A stretch of 64,000 nt of DNA from Leptonema illini DSM 21528 (GCF_000243335.1 NZ_JH597773.1:2163550-2227549); one strand, 5' to 3'. Counted from the first letter of the stretch, positions 9,974 through 23,395 are shown. Made by a program: numbers and translations. Notes: generated from the sequence alone by a model not told the origin.

Positions 9974-10579
9974 ATGTTCACCGGCATCATAGAGAACACC
10001 GGCATCGTCGAAAGCATCAGCCAGTCGGGTACCAATCGCATCTTCCACATTAAAAGCGCGATCGCCTCAGAGCTGAACGTTGGTGAAAGCGTCGCCCATA
10101 ACGGCGTCTGCCTGACCGTGGAGCCCGAAGAAGGCCTTAAAGAGGCCTACAGGGTGACGGCCATAGCCGAAACGCTTGAGAAAACGGCCATCGGCTCCCT
10201 CCTCGTCGGGTCAAAGATCAACCTCGAACGAGCGCTGCGAGCGGACGGCCGCCTTGACGGCCATTTTGTGCAGGGCCATGTCGATGCCGTAGGTGAAGTC
10301 GATGCCGTGCTACCGCGTGATGGCAGCACCGAATACTGGATTCGTTATCCAGAGAGACATGCTTCTCTGCTCGTACCTCAGGGAAGCATCTGTGTGAACG
10401 GCATCAGCCTGACCGTATCGGGCCTTCGCGAGAATCTGTTCGCCGTTAACATCATTCCGCATACGGCGTCGATCACCGATGCAGGTACATGGCAGAAAGG
10501 AACTCAGGTGAATCTTGAATTCGACATCCTGGGCAAGTACATCCTTCGATTCCTTGAGAAGAGAGAATCGATCAGATGA
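9974..10579 (+). CDS. ribE: riboflavin synthase alpha subunit
   Basis: The enzyme dismutates two molecules of 6,7-dimethyl-8-ribityllumazine to riboflavin and a pyrimidinedione. The 201-residue protein begins with the invariant MFTGIIE and contains two lumazine-binding beta-barrel repeats, each with the VAHNGVCLTV / VCVNGISLTV type motif (near residues 45 and 140), and GHFVQGHVD between them. The reading frame opens at 9926, but ATG 9974 gives the canonical N terminus. No other rib gene is adjacent. No FMN riboswitch was recognised in the 70-base gap upstream. Confidence 0.94.
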   Translation: MFTGIIENTGIVESISQSGTNRIFHIKSAIASELNVGESVAHNGVCLTVEPEEGLKEAYRVTAIAETLEKTAIGSLLVGSKINLERALRADGRLDGHFVQGHVDAVGEVDAVLPRDGSTEYWIRYPERHASLLVPQGSICVNGISLTVSGLRENLFAVNIIPHTASITDAGTWQKGTQVNLEFDILGKYILRFLEKRESIR

Positions 10580-16552: not shown

Positions 16553-16978
16553 ATGCGTCGCTTTCCTGCCTTTCTCGGCATCGTATCCGGCATCCTACTG
16601 CTTTTTGCCTGCTCGCCGCAGAATATCCTGCGTTTCGAAGATATGCACATCGCCTATACGCCCAGCCCTGTTCTCGGAATGTATGGCACAATCCACAACG
16701 GCACCGAGAACGCTCTTGTTCTTGAAAGCGTAAAGTCCGATCGCTTTAAAAGAATCGAGATTCATCAGACGACGACGTCCGAGGGTCGCATGCGCATGGA
16801 ACGCATCGACACGCTCACGATTCCCGCTCGAAGCGCCGTGGAGCTTGCACCGGGCAAGGCACATATCATGCTCTTTGAAGCGACCGAGCCTGTAAAAAAC
16901 GGCGAGATCATTCCGGTAACGATCACGCTGAGCGGAACGACTCATTCTCTTGAAGTGCTCGTCAGAGGAAACCCATGA
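16553..16978 (+). CDS. PCu(A)C copper chaperone lipoprotein
   Basis: PCu(A)C proteins carry Cu(I) in the periplasm and pass it to the CuA site of cytochrome oxidase. The 141-residue product has a lipoprotein signal ending in LLLFAC|S and the copper motif, seen as EIHQTT with GRMRM and then KAHIMLFE, which matches the family's H-M...H-x-M pattern. A GTG at 16547 overlaps the upstream stop (GTGA), and ATG 16553 is two codons later. Either could be the start. The Sco gene follows with an ATGA overlap, a well-known functional pairing. Confidence 0.85.
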   Translation: MRRFPAFLGIVSGILLLFACSPQNILRFEDMHIAYTPSPVLGMYGTIHNGTENALVLESVKSDRFKRIEIHQTTTSEGRMRMERIDTLTIPARSAVELAPGKAHIMLFEATEPVKNGEIIPVTITLSGTTHSLEVLVRGNP

Positions 16979-17550
16979 AACGGATCCTGCTATTTCTCGT
17001 ATCAAGCTTCGCTTTCAGCCTCTTGCTCGCCTGCGAAAAAGAGCCCTTTCCGTTGAAGCAGCTCGGCTCGCCCGCTGCATTCACGTTAACCGATACAGAG
17101 GGACAGCCGTATAACTACGAACCGACGTCGGGAACGGTGCGCCTCGTCTTCTTCGGCTACACGCAGTGCCCGGACTACTGCCCGGCCACCATGTCGAAAT
17201 TGCAGAAGGTTTTCGAGAAGCTTCCCTTCCCCGCCGAGGAACGCCCCGAGATCCTCTTTATCTCCGTTGATCCGGAACGAGACACGCCCGAAGTACTCTC
17301 GCGCTATCTTGAGGCCTTTAAGATCCCCGCCACCGGATTAACAGGCGATCGCAAATCGCTCGAAGAGATCGCCCGCAACTTCGGAACGTTCTTTCACATA
17401 GAGAAGAAAGGCAAAGACGTCATCGTCGATCATTCGACGTATCTGTATCTCATCGACCCTGAAGGCAGAATCCGCTATCTCTTTCGAAGCCAGGACAGCG
17501 CCGACACGATCTTCGAAGGCGTGACGGCGTTATACGCCGAGATGGACTAA
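16975..17550 (+). CDS. Sco1/SenC-family copper-binding lipoprotein
   Basis: Sco proteins have a thioredoxin fold and help assemble the CuA centre of cytochrome c oxidase. The 191-residue protein has a lipoprotein signal (SFAFSLLLAC, Cys20). The copper ligands Cys65 and Cys69 are in GYTQCPDYCP, and the third ligand His153 is in VDHSTYLYLID. VDPERDTPE, also typical, is intact. It overlaps the PCuAC gene by ATGA, so the two are made together. It ends one base before the first copy of the structured hairpin repeat. Confidence 0.92.
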   Translation: MKRILLFLVSSFAFSLLLACEKEPFPLKQLGSPAAFTLTDTEGQPYNYEPTSGTVRLVFFGYTQCPDYCPATMSKLQKVFEKLPFPAEERPEILFISVDPERDTPEVLSRYLEAFKIPATGLTGDRKSLEEIARNFGTFFHIEKKGKDVIVDHSTYLYLIDPEGRIRYLFRSQDSADTIFEGVTALYAEMD

Positions 17551-17551
17551 G

Positions 17552-17650
17552 GCCCGTTTGCACTCTGCCTGTCCGGCGCGTGGCGCGATCGTGCGCCAGG
17601 CGCCGTCGCTTTACCGTCCATGGCTCGCTACAGGCAGAGAGCAAACGGGC
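17552..17650. repeat. structured hairpin repeat, copy A
   Basis: A 99-base element directly after the Sco stop. The outer arms 17552-17572 and 17630-17650 are complementary at 20 of 21 positions. An inner hairpin (17575-17586 with 17593-17604, 11 of 12 paired) is capped by the loop GATCGT. The apical TGGCGCGATCGTGCGCCAGG is identical in copy B at 23121-23219, whereas the lower stems differ in sequence but still pair. It could be a transcribed structured RNA, a terminator-like element or a REP-type DNA element. It was not recognised as a known family. Confidence 0.8.
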
Positions 17651-17700
17651 TGGAATGGGAGGGACGGGAGCGGCGTTAGCCCCTCCCTATACCTGCGATC

Positions 17701-18201
17701 CTATTTACTCGGAACGGGCACGCTTAACCAGATTTCCGATTTTTTTTCGTCCAACGCTTTCGATAGCTTGAATGTCGTCGGCATTTTGTCTTTCGGATAA
17801 ACGAAGACAAAGACCCGCCGGGCGGCCTCGCCCGATCCAAGCTCTATCGGCCCCTCGCCGGTTCGCCCTTTAAACATTGATTCTCCAAACGCCTCAAAGG
17901 CATTCTCATAGTCGACAACGGCCGGCATTGATCCCTGAATGCCCACAGTGGGCTCAAGCTGGCCAGTATGCGGGAGGATTGTAACTTCTTCATTCCTGAG
18001 ATTCATGAATTCAACATGCAGGATGAGCATCGTATCCTTTTCGGGATTTTTCGGCGAATAGAGACCCGGATTATAGGTATCGGCCGTTTCGACAGCGGTA
18101 ATGCGAATAGCGCCGGATTCATTCTTTACCGGTGCAAGCTCCTGAACCGTTTTAGCGGAAACACAGGACCCGAGAAAAATCAAAAGAACGATACGTTTCA
18201 C
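17701..18201 (-). CDS. hypothetical lipoprotein
   Basis: The 166-residue product begins MKRIVLLIFLGSC, a short lipoprotein signal with Cys13. The body is beta-rich, with DTMLILHVEFMNLRNEEVTI resembling the immunoglobulin-like DUF4352 pattern (conserved 'vdv.v.N' strand), but the match is weak. The start is GTG 18201, with AAGGAG seven bases upstream and a well-formed promoter further up. It appears to be transcribed alone and sits at the edge of the accessory island. Confidence 0.7.
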   Translation of the reverse strand: MKRIVLLIFLGSCVSAKTVQELAPVKNESGAIRITAVETADTYNPGLYSPKNPEKDTMLILHVEFMNLRNEEVTILPHTGQLEPTVGIQGSMPAVVDYENAFEAFGESMFKGRTGEGPIELGSGEAARRVFVFVYPKDKMPTTFKLSKALDEKKSEIWLSVPVPSK

Positions 18202-18223
18202 ATTTATACTCCTTATTTATTAG

Positions 18224-18252
18224 TATATAGACTGTCCCGATTACAGAGTCAA
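18224..18252 (-). promoter_or_regulatory. sigma-70-type promoter for the 17701-18201 lipoprotein gene
   Basis: On the minus strand a TTGACT (18252-18247) is followed after exactly 17 bases by TATATA (18229-18224). Then come the AAGGAG ribosome site and the GTG start. Element quality and spacing fit the vegetative consensus. Confidence 0.7.
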
Positions 18253-18327
18253 TAAAAAAACCATCGGATGCTTTCAGCAGAAAGCCCATCGGCGAATATT
18301 CTGCAGGAGCAAATGCACCTCGCTCGA

Positions 18328-18786
18328 CTAATACGATCGACAGTTCCACTTACAGCCACACGATGCTCCGCCTGTTCCAAACAGGCCGCCGGGATTCAGG
18401 CCGCAGGCACACCCGGTCCAGCACCAATCTGTACTGTGCGTCTTCACTCGCACAAATGAAGCCTGCTGATTTTCCGAAATCGTAATAGTCGATCGGCCCG
18501 CCGGAACGATAAGCGGCAGAGGAACACATCCGACAACCGGCGTGACGCCGACCCAACGTAGGCGATTTCTACTGTAGACCTTCACCTTCCAGCCATTCGC
18601 ATCCTCGTATTCCTCGACTGGAGGACCGTACAGAAGATCCCACTGTTTTATGAGAGATGCTGTGTATTCTTCTCTTTTGAATTCGCGTTCGCTGGTATCC
18701 GGCCGGGTTGAAAACACTCCAAGACCGATACAGGCGCACAGGTGTGGTATGCACAGAAGTAAAGCGACGAAGAGGCGGACATTCAT
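18328..18786 (-). CDS. hypothetical cysteine-rich lipoprotein
   Basis: From ATG 18786 the product has 152 residues, beginning with a lipoprotein-type signal (VALLLCIPHLCAC). The final 30 residues are unusually rich in Cys and Gly (DWCWTGCACGLNPGG, then ASCGCKWNCRSY), which suggests disulfides or a metal site. No family was recognised. It lies in the same orientation as the next lipoprotein gene, but that one has its own promoter. The IS cluster lies about 140 bases upstream. Confidence 0.6.
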   Translation of the reverse strand: MNVRLFVALLLCIPHLCACIGLGVFSTRPDTSEREFKREEYTASLIKQWDLLYGPPVEEYEDANGWKVKVYSRNRLRWVGVTPVVGCVPLPLIVPAGRSTITISENQQASFVRVKTHSTDWCWTGCACGLNPGGLFGTGGASCGCKWNCRSY

Positions 18787-18884
18787 GTCGTGTCTCAGCA
18801 TTCTCGTATGACCAGTATGACAAGCTATAAACACTCTCTATGTGACAGCGATCCAGAGAAATCGTTGCTACAGGCAGAACAGGC

Positions 18885-18925
18885 GGCGCGACATAATTTC
18901 ATTACTGTCGTATTACTATTGTCCC
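18885..18925. repeat. left half of a small hairpin element interrupted by IS elements
   Basis: GGCGCGACATAAT at 18885-18897 is exactly complementary to ATTATGTCGCGCC at 21193-21205, on the far side of two IS elements. Joined, the halves would form an element of about 62 bases with imperfect arms of about 22 bases. The last eight bases, ATTGTCCC, are the target duplication of the first IS. Confidence 0.75.
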
Positions 18926-20057
18926 GGCTTTGTTGTATTGAAACGGTCAGTAGAGTGCGAACTTCCATGCTCAGTCGTTTTAACATTGAGTCTTCAGGTT
19001 TTTATCGGAACAGAAACGGGCTTGCCGAGCTGATTGAGCTTGTTCAACAACCGGCTTCTCAAGAGAACTTCGGCTTGCTGGTTTGGGAAATTACGAGCGG
19101 CCATCCTTTCTCCGAATACTGTTTTGTAACGAAAGAAAGTCATTTCTACGAGTGATCGCTTATGATAGTCGCTTTCCTTCTTCCATGCTGCTCGGGTCTT
19201 CTCTCTCACAGCCCTGATAGTATCATCCCTCTGCCAGGATATCTTGAACCTTTCCGCATTTGAATACTTTTCATCGAGCGTCACTGCATGTTCGCGGGGT
19301 GGAACGATCACATTGATTCCGTTGATGCGGGCGGTATTGTAAACAGCATGAGTATCATAGGCTCCGTCGCCCCTGAACGACTTTATTTTCACGCCTGACG
19401 AAATCAAATCTCGCATCGCCTTTACCGCTTCTTTGCTGTCGCCGCTATCCTCATTATTGCTTGTTAACTCGGCATAAACTATCTCGCCGGAATTAACGTC
19501 GATTCCGATATGCAGTTTTCGCCACGTACGACGTTTTGAGGGACCATGCTTTCTGGTCATCCATTCACCGTCGCCATAGACTTTCAGCCCCGTCGAATCC
19601 ATAACCAGATCCACGCCTTTTTTCATAGCCTTTGAGGCATTGATCGGCTTCATCTTGATCCCCGCCTGTCTTCTGCAAACCTGTGAATAATCGGGCACTT
19701 GCAGATCCAGCTTTAGCATCGTGAATAGCGACCTTACAAAACCGGTGGTCTGGCGAAGAGGGAATTTGAACAGGCCCCGGAGAGTCAGCATGAACTCAAT
19801 TGCCTGGTCCGAATAAACAGGCTGATGGCCGCGTCCTCTATGACGGTATTCCGCTGCCCAGGTCGTGCTGATATCATCTGAGATCCATACGGTCAGGCTT
19901 CCCCGGTTCACGAGGGCCTGGTTATATTCCCGCCAGTTCTTTACACGATAACGTGTTTTCTCTTTTGCTTCGGTCTGTGTTTCAGCTTTTTTCCGGGCCA
20001 TGCGTTCAGTTTATACGACTCATTGCAGGGTACAAGCATTTTCAGTACAACAAAGCC
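18926..20057 (-). mobile_element. IS5-family (IS903-like group) insertion sequence, first type
   Basis: The ends are GGCTTTGTTGTA at 18926-18937 and its complement TACAACAAAGCC at 20046-20057. Similarity continues a few bases inward. The 1132-base element carries one transposase gene reading leftward. ATTGTCCC flanks it on both sides (18918-18925 and 20058-20065) as an 8-base duplication. The base before the duplication differs (T versus C), so an original 9-base duplication with one change is also possible. The GGCTTTGTTG terminus is typical of the IS903 group. Confidence 0.9.
18994..20001 (-). CDS. IS5-family transposase (first type)
   Basis: The 335-residue DDE transposase has VMDSTGLKVYG for the first Asp, FRGDGAYDTHAV for the second Asp and KRSLVEMTFFRYK for the catalytic Glu with its following Arg/Lys. 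The N terminus, KNWREYNQALVNRGSLTVW, is typical of the IS903 group. The gene appears intact, so the element could be active. It is clearly related to, but different from, the transposase of the neighbouring element (20129-21118). Confidence 0.92.
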   Translation of the reverse strand: MARKKAETQTEAKEKTRYRVKNWREYNQALVNRGSLTVWISDDISTTWAAEYRHRGRGHQPVYSDQAIEFMLTLRGLFKFPLRQTTGFVRSLFTMLKLDLQVPDYSQVCRRQAGIKMKPINASKAMKKGVDLVMDSTGLKVYGDGEWMTRKHGPSKRRTWRKLHIGIDVNSGEIVYAELTSNNEDSGDSKEAVKAMRDLISSGVKIKSFRGDGAYDTHAVYNTARINGINVIVPPREHAVTLDEKYSNAERFKISWQRDDTIRAVREKTRAAWKKESDYHKRSLVEMTFFRYKTVFGERMAARNFPNQQAEVLLRSRLLNKLNQLGKPVSVPIKT

Positions 20058-20065
20058 ATTGTCCC

Positions 20066-21174
20066 GGCTTTGTTGCGCAAAGATTATCCGAGCCAATAGC
20101 CTCCCGGATTTCAATTCCAGAACGTTTATTACCTGATCCGCTTCTCTGACTTCGGTTTAGCCGTCTTGATCATTTTATTAAGCATAGAGGCCCGCAATGT
20201 GACCTCTACTCGCTGATTCTCAAGGTTACGAGCGCTCAGGCGGTCACCGAACGTTCGCTTGTAGCGATAGATTGCCATTTCTACAAGTGATCGTTTGAAA
20301 TATCCGCTCTCTGTCTTCCAACCTCCTTTTCCGATTTCCCGAATTCTTTTCACGATTTCATCGCGTGGCCAGGTATTATCCATGGCATTCTCGTATTTTT
20401 CGCTTGATAGAATGGCTCCTTCCCTGCTTGGAATAATGGCTTTGATTCCATGCTGCAAGCATGTCAGAAACACTCTATGAGCATCGTACGCTCCATCCCC
20501 GCGAAAATCCTTTATGTCATAGCCTTGCTTTACGAGTGATCGAATGATATCGGGTGCGGGCTCCGCATCGTGAGTATCACGCTGGGTTAGTAACGCAGTC
20601 AGTATCTGTCCGCTACCTGCATCAATGGCAAGATGAAGCTTGCGCCATGTCCTTCGTTTCCCCGCACCGTGCTCGCGAACTTTCCATTCGCCTTCGCCGA
20701 AAACCTTGAGCCCCGTTCCGTCGAGTACAAGATGAATTGGTTTTGATCGGATTCCCTTCGGCAATTTGATAGAAGGGGAGAGCCGACCCTGTCTGCGTGA
20801 GATTCGACTGTAATCCGGTACTTCCAGATCCAATCCGGAGAGCTTGAAAAGCGATGCCAGCAGCCCCGTTGTTTGCCGTAGAGGCAGCCCGAAGAGACTC
20901 TTCAAAACGAGAACACATTCAATAGCAGCATCAGAGTATTTATCTCTTCTTCCCCGGCGATTCGGTGTTTCCACGGAATACCAGCGATCCTCAATTCCAT
21001 CCTCTATCCAGAGACAGAGATCCCCTCGCTTAACGAGCCCTCTGTTGTAATCTCTCCAGTTCAGAACTCGATAGGGAACCTTTGGATCTTGCTTTCCCTT
21101 TATCCGCAATGCGCTCATAATATCGTTATGTCGCCAAGGCCGCTCAGTACAAGCCTTTTTTGCGCAACAAAGCC
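20066..21174 (-). mobile_element. IS5-family (IS903-like group) insertion sequence, second type, copy 1
   Basis: The 1109-base element is bounded by 16-base inverted ends: GGCTTTGTTGCGCAAA at 20066 and its complement ending at 21174. The flanking 9-mers CATTGTCCC (20057-20065 and 21175-21183) are identical, a standard IS903-group duplication. The left 9-mer uses the last base of the first IS and its target duplication, so this element arrived second. By inspection it matches the copy at 60869-61977, with an identical transposase. Confidence 0.93.
20129..21118 (-). CDS. IS5-family transposase (second type, copy 1)
   Basis: The 329-residue DDE transposase has VLDGTGLKVFG (Asp), FRGDGAYDAHRV (Asp) and KRSLVEMAIYRYK (Glu). 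It is intact, and its protein sequence is identical to the copy at 60932-61921. The N-terminal LNWRDYNRGLVKRGDLCLW resembles the first-type transposase, so the two element types share a common origin. Confidence 0.93.
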   Translation of the reverse strand: MSALRIKGKQDPKVPYRVLNWRDYNRGLVKRGDLCLWIEDGIEDRWYSVETPNRRGRRDKYSDAAIECVLVLKSLFGLPLRQTTGLLASLFKLSGLDLEVPDYSRISRRQGRLSPSIKLPKGIRSKPIHLVLDGTGLKVFGEGEWKVREHGAGKRRTWRKLHLAIDAGSGQILTALLTQRDTHDAEPAPDIIRSLVKQGYDIKDFRGDGAYDAHRVFLTCLQHGIKAIIPSREGAILSSEKYENAMDNTWPRDEIVKRIREIGKGGWKTESGYFKRSLVEMAIYRYKRTFGDRLSARNLENQRVEVTLRASMLNKMIKTAKPKSEKRIR

Positions 21175-21205
21175 CATTGTCCCCATAATTATATTATGTC
21201 GCGCC
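21175..21205. repeat. right half of the interrupted hairpin element, with target duplication
   Basis: CATTGTCCC (21175-21183) is the target duplication of the second IS. It is followed by CATAATTAT and then ATTATGTCGCGCC (21193-21205), which pairs exactly with the left half at 18885-18897. See the matching pair at 60829-60868 and 61978-62006. Confidence 0.75.
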
Positions 21206-21571
21206 CCATATTCACAGTTCCAGCGCCGTACTCCATCCCCGAGACTCCCGCCGCAGCCGCTATTACAGCCCCTACTGGCATTGAAGTATCCCCCAGCCGC
21301 CCTCCCGACTAACCACTCCCACTGCATCCCACGTATATTCCAATCGCTCGATGCGCTATCTGCGTGGAAAAACGTAATCCAAGCCCGTCAGCAGCGACTG
21401 TTAAAGAATGTTTTACGGGTTCTCGCGAAAACTATAGATCCAATTCGAGCGGATACAGCGCTACCGGATTTTTCAACTTCCTCAATTCGTTCAATTTAAA
21501 GTGAACAGCAGACGATCCAGCATACTCTAAAAAGCACACAGCATAGACATACTCACTTCAAGAGGTAGATC
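21206..21571. other. intergenic stretch without a recognised gene
   Basis: About 366 bases between the hairpin element and the lipoprotein gene at 21572. The first half is unusually C-rich on the plus strand. The second half is AT-richer and has no coding signature in either direction. No tRNA, terminator or convincing promoter was recognised. It may be a decayed remnant of earlier insertions. Confidence 0.5.
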
Positions 21572-22285
21572 ATGAATGTTCGAAGGTTGACTCTCTTTGT
21601 TTTCTCGATTATGCTTTTATCATACTGTTCAACAGGTTTTACCCGCGAAGAGCGATCCTATCCGTCCGCCGGATATCAGGTCGATGTTGCTTCTATTCAC
21701 ACGGAGCTCCAGAGACGTCCACAGCTTCGCTTCCCGACGCGAATCGCCGTATTCCTCGATCAACCGCCAACCAGACGGGGCGAGGCGCCCTGGCGATTCA
21801 CGGCTTCAGAAATCGAGCAGGTAACAGGTCTTGAGGAAGAACTCCGGGCTGCCGGTGTGGCAAGCCAGCTCTTTCTGATGACCGAGCAGACAGCGATCCT
21901 TAGCGGCCTCGCACACCAATGGGATCAGGCCAACCTCGAAACCATTCGACTGCTCGCGGCTCGACATGGTGCGGAGGCAGTACTTGTCATCTCTGGTGAA
22001 AGTCGAGTTACTGCATCTGCAAACCCGCTGAGCATCATGTATTTGACGGTTGCCGGCGTGTGGCTCATCCCCGGCTCGCATCGTGACGCTCTCTTTTATA
22101 TACGCGCCTCTCTCTGGGACGTTCGCAACCAGTTTCTTTACGCGTCAGTACAGGCTGAAGGCGAAGCAACACAGCTCCGTCCGTACGGCTTCATCAGCGA
22201 GGAAAGTGTTGTCGAGTCGGCTAAATCCAAGGCCTTCGCCGATTTCACGCCGGAGTTACGCAAACGATTGCTGGCGCTGAAGTGA
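21572..22285 (+). CDS. hypothetical lipoprotein, rhombotarget-like
   Basis: The 237-residue product has a lipoprotein signal (LFVFSIMLLSYC, then ST). The body alternates strand and helix: FPTRIAVFLDQPP, an IRLLAARHGAEAVLVISGES segment, a SIMYLTVAGVWLIPG turn, and a late ASLWDVRNQFLYASVQAEGE strand. This layout reminds me of the rhombotarget lipoprotein family, but that is a visual impression without confirmation. AGAGGTAGATC precedes the ATG. It stands alone next to the IS cluster. Confidence 0.65.
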   Translation: MNVRRLTLFVFSIMLLSYCSTGFTREERSYPSAGYQVDVASIHTELQRRPQLRFPTRIAVFLDQPPTRRGEAPWRFTASEIEQVTGLEEELRAAGVASQLFLMTEQTAILSGLAHQWDQANLETIRLLAARHGAEAVLVISGESRVTASANPLSIMYLTVAGVWLIPGSHRDALFYIRASLWDVRNQFLYASVQAEGEATQLRPYGFISEESVVESAKSKAFADFTPELRKRLLALK

Positions 22286-22433
22286 AGCAAGCGGTGTGTG
22301 CTTGCTTCTACGTGGCATGGGCGAGGCTGACGGTTCGCATGTCAGTTAGTCACAGCCCCCAAACAAAATCGTGCTGGCCTATTCTACGTAGTAGTAAGTA
22401 TTCGGTAATTGATTTTTCCATTTGGACATTCGT

Positions 22434-23042
22434 ATGGCTGTTTTCTCACCCATAGTATTTCTCGACCGTTGCCGAGAGTTCGAAACGGATGAACTCATCA
22501 AAGGGTTCGTTACTCATAACACTTGGAAGATCGGACTCGCCTTCGTTGAAGGCTTCGAATTTTCCTTGATTCAAGACTCAGGATTCGAATTGGACCAGCT
22601 CTGGGACAAGATGTATAACACACTCCGGAAGCTTCGATTCTTTTATTCCCCTGGTGAACCAACTTCATTTCAAGGATTGAGTGAATACTACAAAGAGATG
22701 GACGAAGTCTCTGTGAAAGCAAACGATCTTTTTGACCGCTGGACCCGTTTGCTCAGCAGCCCTCAATCAGCCCCGATCCATAATCCAGACTCGGCGGCCA
22801 AATCCTTTGGCCTCTTTCATGGCCGATCGTCCAAGGAATATCTCGAAATCTACCTGTATGGCTTCGCCCTGCATTCCGATCTGGACAAACGGCAGCGACG
22901 AGCGGACGATCTCGCGTATCTGGGCGAACACCTTACAAATCATAACTTCTACGTGTTGATCTGTATTCTGCGCTCGGCACGGGAGATCATTCGGGATGCC
23001 GCAGATTTTGTCCAATACGAATGTGGACGTTCGCCTAACTGA
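22434..23042 (+). CDS. hypothetical protein in the accessory island
   Basis: No family was recognised. From ATG 22434 the product has 202 residues and is mostly helical with many aromatic residues (FVEGFEFSLIQDSGFEL, NTLRKLRFFYSPGE), without a signal peptide. A TTG four codons earlier is an alternative start. It is flanked by the IS cluster on one side and the nested palindromic tract on the other, and it has no operon partner. This is consistent with acquired DNA, but there is no direct proof. Confidence 0.6.
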   Translation: MAVFSPIVFLDRCREFETDELIKGFVTHNTWKIGLAFVEGFEFSLIQDSGFELDQLWDKMYNTLRKLRFFYSPGEPTSFQGLSEYYKEMDEVSVKANDLFDRWTRLLSSPQSAPIHNPDSAAKSFGLFHGRSSKEYLEIYLYGFALHSDLDKRQRRADDLAYLGEHLTNHNFYVLICILRSAREIIRDAADFVQYECGRSPN

Positions 23043-23073
23043 ACCTTGCTCCTCTGCCCCGCCTCCCCACACC

Positions 23074-23395
23074 GTCCCGCACGCACCCACCTGAAAGCGG
23101 AGCGTGCCGGGCCTGGTAGGGCCCCTTTGCTCTCGTCCTCACCCGACGATGGCGCGATCGTGCGCCAGGTCGGGCCGCTCCGCCCTCCGTGGCACGCTTT
23201 CGGACGAGAGCAAAGGGGCTGGACTCTGGGCATCGGGAGTAAACTCAAGCCTCGTCTAACCCACTCCATCTCGCACGCATCCATCCGAACCCCGCCTGGC
23301 ACTCAGCCGATCAACAAGGTGCCACCCGCGGGGTGAGGAATGAGATGCGTGCGAGATTTACCACCCGCACGGCTGAAGGTGGGTGCGTGCGAGAC
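23074..23395. repeat. nested palindromic tract before the rpoD stop codon
   Basis: The outer arms 23074-23092 and 23377-23395 are complementary at 18 of 19 positions, and the right arm touches the rpoD stop codon. Inside are the structured hairpin repeat copy B (23121-23219), a 13-base pair of arms ATCTCGCACGCAT (23268-23280) and its complement (23345-23357), and a CCCCGC...TGGCAC hairpin (23289-23302 with 23319-23334). The recurring CGCACGC unit links the outer and middle arms. There is no gene. It probably includes the transcription end of the rpoD operon. Confidence 0.75.
23121..23219. repeat. structured hairpin repeat, copy B
   Basis: This is a 99-base element, the same length as copy A at 17552-17650. 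The outer arms GCCCCTTTGCTCTCGTCC (23121-23138) and its perfect complement (23202-23219) replace the different outer arms of copy A. The inner stem CCCGAC/GTCGGG replaces GGCGC/GCGCC. The apical GATGGCGCGATCGTGCGCCAGG region is unchanged, as are parts of the 3' strand (GTGGC-CGCT, GAGAGCAAA, GGGCTGGA). Confidence 0.8.

Follow-up and report, generated by a model that had tools for sequence, protein, structure and literature searches.

A dispersed family of three-armed, probably mobile palindromes with exchangeable hairpin modules in Leptonema illini

Two three-way-junction palindromes in the window

The window analyzed here, a stretch of 64,000 nucleotides from Leptonema illini DSM 21528, carries two intergenic palindromes, element A (17552-17650) and element B (23121-23219), which belong to a dispersed, non-coding, and probably mobile family. 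Both lie where the initial annotation had placed them, measure 99 nt from stem to stem, and share an identical apex, with 71 of 99 positions matching in an ungapped alignment. The inner stem compensates, reading GGCGC/GCGCC in A and CCCGAC/GTCGGG in B, and the outer stems compensate likewise. The annotation had drawn each palindrome as a single hairpin, a fold that was not borne out. A and B are three-way junctions, because the stretch CGCT...TCC...CGCT, described there as partly conserved and as lying outside the stems, forms a small second arm. The architecture thus consists of an outer stem of 18-21 bp, a GC-rich arm 1 (apex GATCGT), and a small arm 2 whose loop contains TCC. When folded as RNA, A reaches -65.7 kcal/mol (z -6.9) and B -65.4 kcal/mol (z -7.4), and no shuffled sequence equals either value. 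An inverted-repeat search recovers A as arms of 21 bp with 95% identity and B as arms of 18 bp with 100% identity.

Element A in full spans 17550-17658 on the plus strand, from a conserved AGG start to a conserved CTGGAA foot. The 5' side of its outer stem (17552-17572) pairs with the 3' side (17630-17650), and between them stand arm 1 (17574-17605; CGGCGC/GCGCCG plus TGGCGC-GATCGT-GCGCCA) and the small hairpin of arm 2 (17608-17628), which has TCC in its loop. The element begins within the TAA stop codon (17548-17550, plus strand) of a SCO1/SenC-like gene (16975-17550): TA is the presumed target, and the last A is the first base of the element. Element B (23119-23227, plus strand) has the same architecture built from other stems, with arm 1 at 23142-23174 and arm 2 at 23177-23197.

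Element B also forms the left half of a composite of 242 bp (23119-23360, plus strand) made up of the three-way hairpin, a 48-nt spacer, and an inverted palindrome of a second kind. TA stands on either side (23117-23118 and 23359-23360). The spacer, or tail, between the two inverted hairpins (23220-23267) is conserved in a copy at C1:2337 kb (locus L071), and the second palindrome (23268-23357, minus strand), which we call type 3, has a long stem and one arm and lacks the TCC loop. The composite sits in the loop of an older type-3 palindrome, whose left half (23074-23118) and right half (23361-23395) lie on the minus strand. The outer arms of this interrupted host (23074-23092 and 23377-23395) still pair, both junctions are TA, and an intact type-3 copy at C3:10167 provides a model of the host before the composite inserted. 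The initial annotation had overlooked both the palindrome at 23268-23357 and this interrupted fourth palindrome (23074-23395). A comparable inverted pair of three-way hairpins, separated by a 45-nt spacer, lies at C1:4170.9-4171.2 kb. The opposite nesting order is seen at 10303-10470 of locus L070, where a type-1 left stem (GCCCGCCCGCACCCCCTGCGTGCGTCGA) is split by a type-3 palindrome (AGTCACGCGTGCACTCAGCC...GTGACT).

Family members in L. illini and related genera

The genome that we searched, L. illini 3055T, has three contigs totalling 4,522,760 bases, with 4,325,094 in the largest; the published draft of 3055T likewise totals 4,522,760 bp, in scaffolds of 4,325,094, 184,087, and 13,579 (PMC3746420). 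The exact apex occurs at four sites and a one-mismatch apex at three more, and all seven lie within the 99-nt architecture. A first covariance model (R1) built from these seven copies found 24 places with E < 1e-5. The second model (R2), built from an alignment of 25 copies (A4), found 25 places with E ≤ 8.2e-11. The resemblance of A and B is therefore not a matter of chance, there being 25 copies in the genome at E < 1e-10, and the search for further copies that the initial annotation had proposed was clearly positive.

The copies, about 25 full ones and additional partial ones, are dispersed in intergenic DNA, and none contains a gene. Outer-to-outer length is 97-102 nt in nearly all of them, within a full range of 97-127 nt, and TCC is present in the arm 2 segment of 25/25. 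A minority have a longer arm 1 loop beginning with GATCGACCCRCAGGGCCCAGG; in five copies, GATCGACCCRCAGGGCCCAGG(C/G)TG replaces GATCxT, alongside differing outer and lower stems (L061 9462-9586; L066 10368-10491; L069 10288-10409; L076 8671-8797 and 8917-9043). Several full copies have half-copies nearby, for the most part right halves. This excess of right-half over left-half remnants might hint at a retroelement-like 5' truncation, but the cases are few. Scanning about 0.46 Mb around the copies for long stems with gaps of 45-150 nt returned almost exclusively this family and the type-3 palindromes of 86-102 nt. The exact apex pattern matched 53 times in 84,980 genomes and 7 times in viral contigs, apparently as unrelated singletons and not as family members. 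The B composite had no match in a plasmid collection, and we found no description of these palindromes in the open-access literature.

Related palindromes predicted to fold into the same three-armed shape occur in no fewer than seven further genera of the family. The clearest relative, G005, carries eight near-identical copies of a unit of about 255 bp, each containing the three-way core. The unit ends in TARCCCGGATTATTC...GAATAATCCGGGYTA (TARCCCGGATTATTC and its inverse) with TA termini, and many shortened or solo ends occur besides. With the R2 model, a genome of another genus (G012) has five copies, each in a sharply bordered unit of about 207 bp, and there are single, weaker matches with both TCC-loop arms in six further genomes (G003, G004, G007, G008, G011, and G021). 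The arm 2 pattern matched 24 times across 10 genomes, compared with 0 for the reversed control; some of these matches lack a convincing outer stem.

The ends of the elements are often placed at stop codons. For 9 of the 25 aligned elements, the start coincides with, or lies no more than 6 nt from, the stop codon of an open reading frame of at least 80 codons, compared with 2.6% of random positions. Where the two coincide exactly, the final base of TAA or TAG comes from the element, as it does with element A and the SCO1/SenC-like gene. Similarly, 17 of 30 inspected ends in G005 coincide with the stop codon of a reading frame of at least 80 codons (background, 6.4%), and in at least one case (C3:138718-138827) two convergent genes have their stop codons at the two ends. 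This placement is as expected of a TA-targeting miniature inverted-repeat transposable element (MITE) in a gene-dense genome. In L. illini, the ends themselves read (A/G)GGCC...GGCTGGAA in the majority of the 25 aligned copies.

Two observations in the relatives concern the sequence adjoining the units. At L211 and L214 of G005, the right end of the unit holds ATGAATAATCCGGGTTA in frame with the downstream sequence, and so may give genes their start codons. At L046 of G011 (1475-1630), the outer palindrome seems to include some of the 3' end of the gene upstream (CTGGAAGATTT / AAATCTTCCAG), giving the impression that a piece of the gene was copied to the opposite side.

Compensating changes and their interpretation

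The proposal that the stems change in a compensating way and so keep their structure is strongly supported by alignment A4, in which covariation is clear. Of its cells, 92% are paired, and two-sided changes occur in 32 of 38 pairs. The covariation score is 0.48, against 0.158 for shuffled alignments (0/500); sliding the partners brings it to 0.11 or less. The cells comprise 862 Watson-Crick, 22 A-C, and 5 G-T combinations (G·T, 0.5%), and 169 two-sided changes compared with 4 one-sided standard ones; these are counts of cells and not of events, because the copies are related and recombine. By comparison, G-U makes up 12 of 167 pairs (7.2%) in eight tRNAs of L. illini and its relatives. The near absence of G·T wobble points to folded or self-copied DNA and not RNA, and it is unlikely that the stems arose by slow RNA-level drift through wobble intermediates.

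Whole segments also differ between copies. Loci L059 and L070 have outer stems that are identical at 42/42 positions and interiors that agree at only 40/58, and both fold. The B composite of the window and that of L071 are 90% identical over the spacer and type-3 palindrome (125 of about 139 positions), compared with 49% over the first hairpin (50 of 103). Judging from these alignments, entire hairpins are replaced within otherwise near-identical composites.

We interpret A and B, with a probability of roughly 0.6, as members of a family of dispersed, non-coding palindromes that are mobile, MITE-like, and non-autonomous, and whose hairpin modules can be exchanged. Mobility is inferred from the dispersal of the copies, from nesting, and from the near-identical copies in G005. 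We use the term MITE-like, and do not assign the family formally to the MITEs, because neither an autonomous partner, sought among Y1 and IS630-type transposases, nor a clear-cut target duplication came to light. Of the three candidates offered in the initial annotation, the one in best agreement with the results is a mobile element dependent on an external transposase, though not in its REP/RAYT form; a structured RNA is weakened by the scarcity of wobble pairs and one-sided changes, and a protein-binding hairpin is still compatible with the data. A trans-acting transposase would insert the unit at TA, and insertions at stop codons would survive because the first base of the element, A or G, preserves the stop. 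The folded single strand, as a hairpin or cruciform, would then be copied or exchanged as a module, so that both sides of a stem are rewritten together. Such modular copying would yield compensation without G-T intermediates as well as hairpin swaps in near-identical composites.

A broader version of this idea is tentative, and we would not expect it to hold in full: that the elements form a family-wide class of mobile DNA recognized by its folded three-way junction and not by sequence. Some enzyme would rewrite or exchange hairpins as folded single strands, and stems would diverge completely, with the shape, arm 2 loop, and stop-preserving ends kept constant.

The alternative with the best claim, though an improbable one, is that the palindromes are structured RNA modules of 3' untranslated regions whose stems are under RNA selection, acting as terminators, as mRNA stabilizers, or, through a pair of GGA loops on the minus strand, as sites for CsrA. 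The fold is very stable on both strands, and many copies start right at a stop codon. On the minus strand, a CANGGANG-like loop is seen, with GGA in arm 2 always and in arm 1 in roughly two thirds of copies; such loops resemble CsrA sites. A-C cells, which would be wobble pairs on the minus strand, exceed G-T cells (22 versus 5), and L. illini has a csrA gene. However, csrA does not discriminate, since genomes in which no elements were detected carry it as well. About nine of the 25 copies lack GGA in arm 1, the elements downstream of a gene show the TCC strand and not GGA, and tRNAs have far more wobble and one-sided changes than these stems do. Rfam 15 gave no match above the gathering threshold in the window and none even at E 5 in 11 element loci, in agreement with the annotation, which had recognized no known family. 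The CsrA-type reading is thus a real but weaker rival.

Compensation could instead be a by-product of mutation, with template switching (quasipalindrome correction) and recombination rewriting the palindromes in the absence of any selection on structure. Changes that are almost exclusively Watson-Crick and two-sided are what this process would leave, as is the replacement of whole stems between otherwise similar units. As a full explanation, we consider it quite unlikely, since a nearly constant length of 99 nt, a fixed arm order, TCC loops in arm 2 of 25/25 copies, and occurrence in several other genera call for a constraint of some kind. Correction of this kind is partly compatible with the MITE-like interpretation.

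Several observations weigh against the MITE-like interpretation. Some elements are preceded by CA, AA, or GA instead of TA, and no consistent longer target-site duplication surrounds the L. illini elements. Single L. illini elements have a ragged right end and show no general terminal inverted repeat; such repeats are seen in some composites only, with outer ends (A/G)GGCC...GGCC. TA flanks both the G005 units and the B composite, though it may belong to the inverted repeat. In the nested insertion, the host palindrome is missing a portion of the loop present in L077, and its TA pair therefore suggests, but does not prove, target duplication. The relatives compared included no second Leptonema genome that might show empty sites, and the covariation counts are inflated by common descent and by recombination among copies. 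No transposase with matching ends was found among the families searched, Y1 and DDE_3/IS630: the L. illini genome lacks DDE_3 (IS630-type), and the two IS630-type elements of G005, examined as possible partners, have unrelated ends.

Other enzymes encoded near the palindromes were also considered. Between A and B lie two DDE transposase genes, which were rejected as a source because the GGCTTTGTTG-type inverted repeats that bound them are unlike the element ends. Transposase-like reading frames with a shared N-terminus lie beside palindromes at L070 8570-10310 and L058 5170-6306; the one at L070 has the inverted repeats GTCTGTCGAAAAACCT / AGGTTTTTCGACAGAC on its two sides and seems to have inserted amid palindromes. 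A tyrosine recombinase of 403 amino acids (L058 9041-10252), encoded 2.4 kb from one element, is related to integron integrases, although its match falls short of the curated cut-off.

Two remaining explanations invoke known recombination enzymes. Repetitive extragenic palindromes (REP/REPIN) moved by a RAYT (Y1) transposase would account for short, dispersed, extragenic palindromes and for inverted pairs with a spacer, but they are very improbable here: the search for a Y1/RAYT-type gene that the annotation had suggested found no Y1_Tnp domain (PF01797) in the L. illini genome, with five control genomes positive, which leaves only a plasmid or an unsequenced stretch as a place for one, and the foot has no GTAG-type tetranucleotide. 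It is hardly credible that the palindromes are integron attC-type sites, for which structure-based recombination would explain the variable stems and the position right after stop codons, and the recombinase at L058 a possible enzyme, because the RYYYAAC/GTTRRRY boxes are absent from the palindrome ends, the integrase matches fall below the cut-off, and the copies are scattered, single or in small clusters, with no cassette array.

Comparison with known systems

Compensatory change is usually regarded as proof of a functional RNA. Here, the two-sided changes, the near lack of wobble, and the stems swapped between near-identical units suggest that such a signal can also arise at the DNA level, through mobile palindromes, which calls for caution in covariation-based RNA discovery. 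If an enzyme does recognize the shape, the family would add to the few DNA recombination systems that read shape. The placement at stop codons illustrates how an element that targets TA could occupy a genome crowded with genes cheaply.

The mitochondrial double-hairpin elements, or GC clusters, are likewise small mobile hairpins in non-coding DNA with compensating changes, but they belong to eukaryotic organelles and consist of two tandem hairpins, compared with the three-way junction described here. REP/REPIN-RAYT systems share short extragenic palindromes arranged as inverted pairs with a spacer between them; the Leptonema elements differ in having no Y1 transposase and no GTAG foot, and in being three-armed with divergent stems.

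In the part of a review that describes it (PMC2229807), the YPAL/RU-2 repeat of Yersinia is a palindromic repeat of similar size that is not A+T-rich, has internal inverted repeats, and lacks TA termini. Its host is unrelated, and that description, on which the comparison is based in place of sequence, mentions neither module exchange nor a three-way junction. The same review covers the MITE-like elements with TA ends, namely ERIC/IRU, RUP, and Correia, most of which, according to that account, have no known autonomous partner (the exception it names is RUP, with IS630-Spn1). As characterized there, these resemble the Leptonema elements in being non-coding, palindromic, intergenic, and multicopy, about 100-260 bp long, with TA termini. 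Within our family, a clear end inverted repeat is shown only in the relative G005. Relative to that published description, the Leptonema elements are further distinguished by being GC-rich, by a three-way-junction core whose stems are freely exchanged between copies, by composites of two unlike hairpins, and by frequent placement at stop codons.

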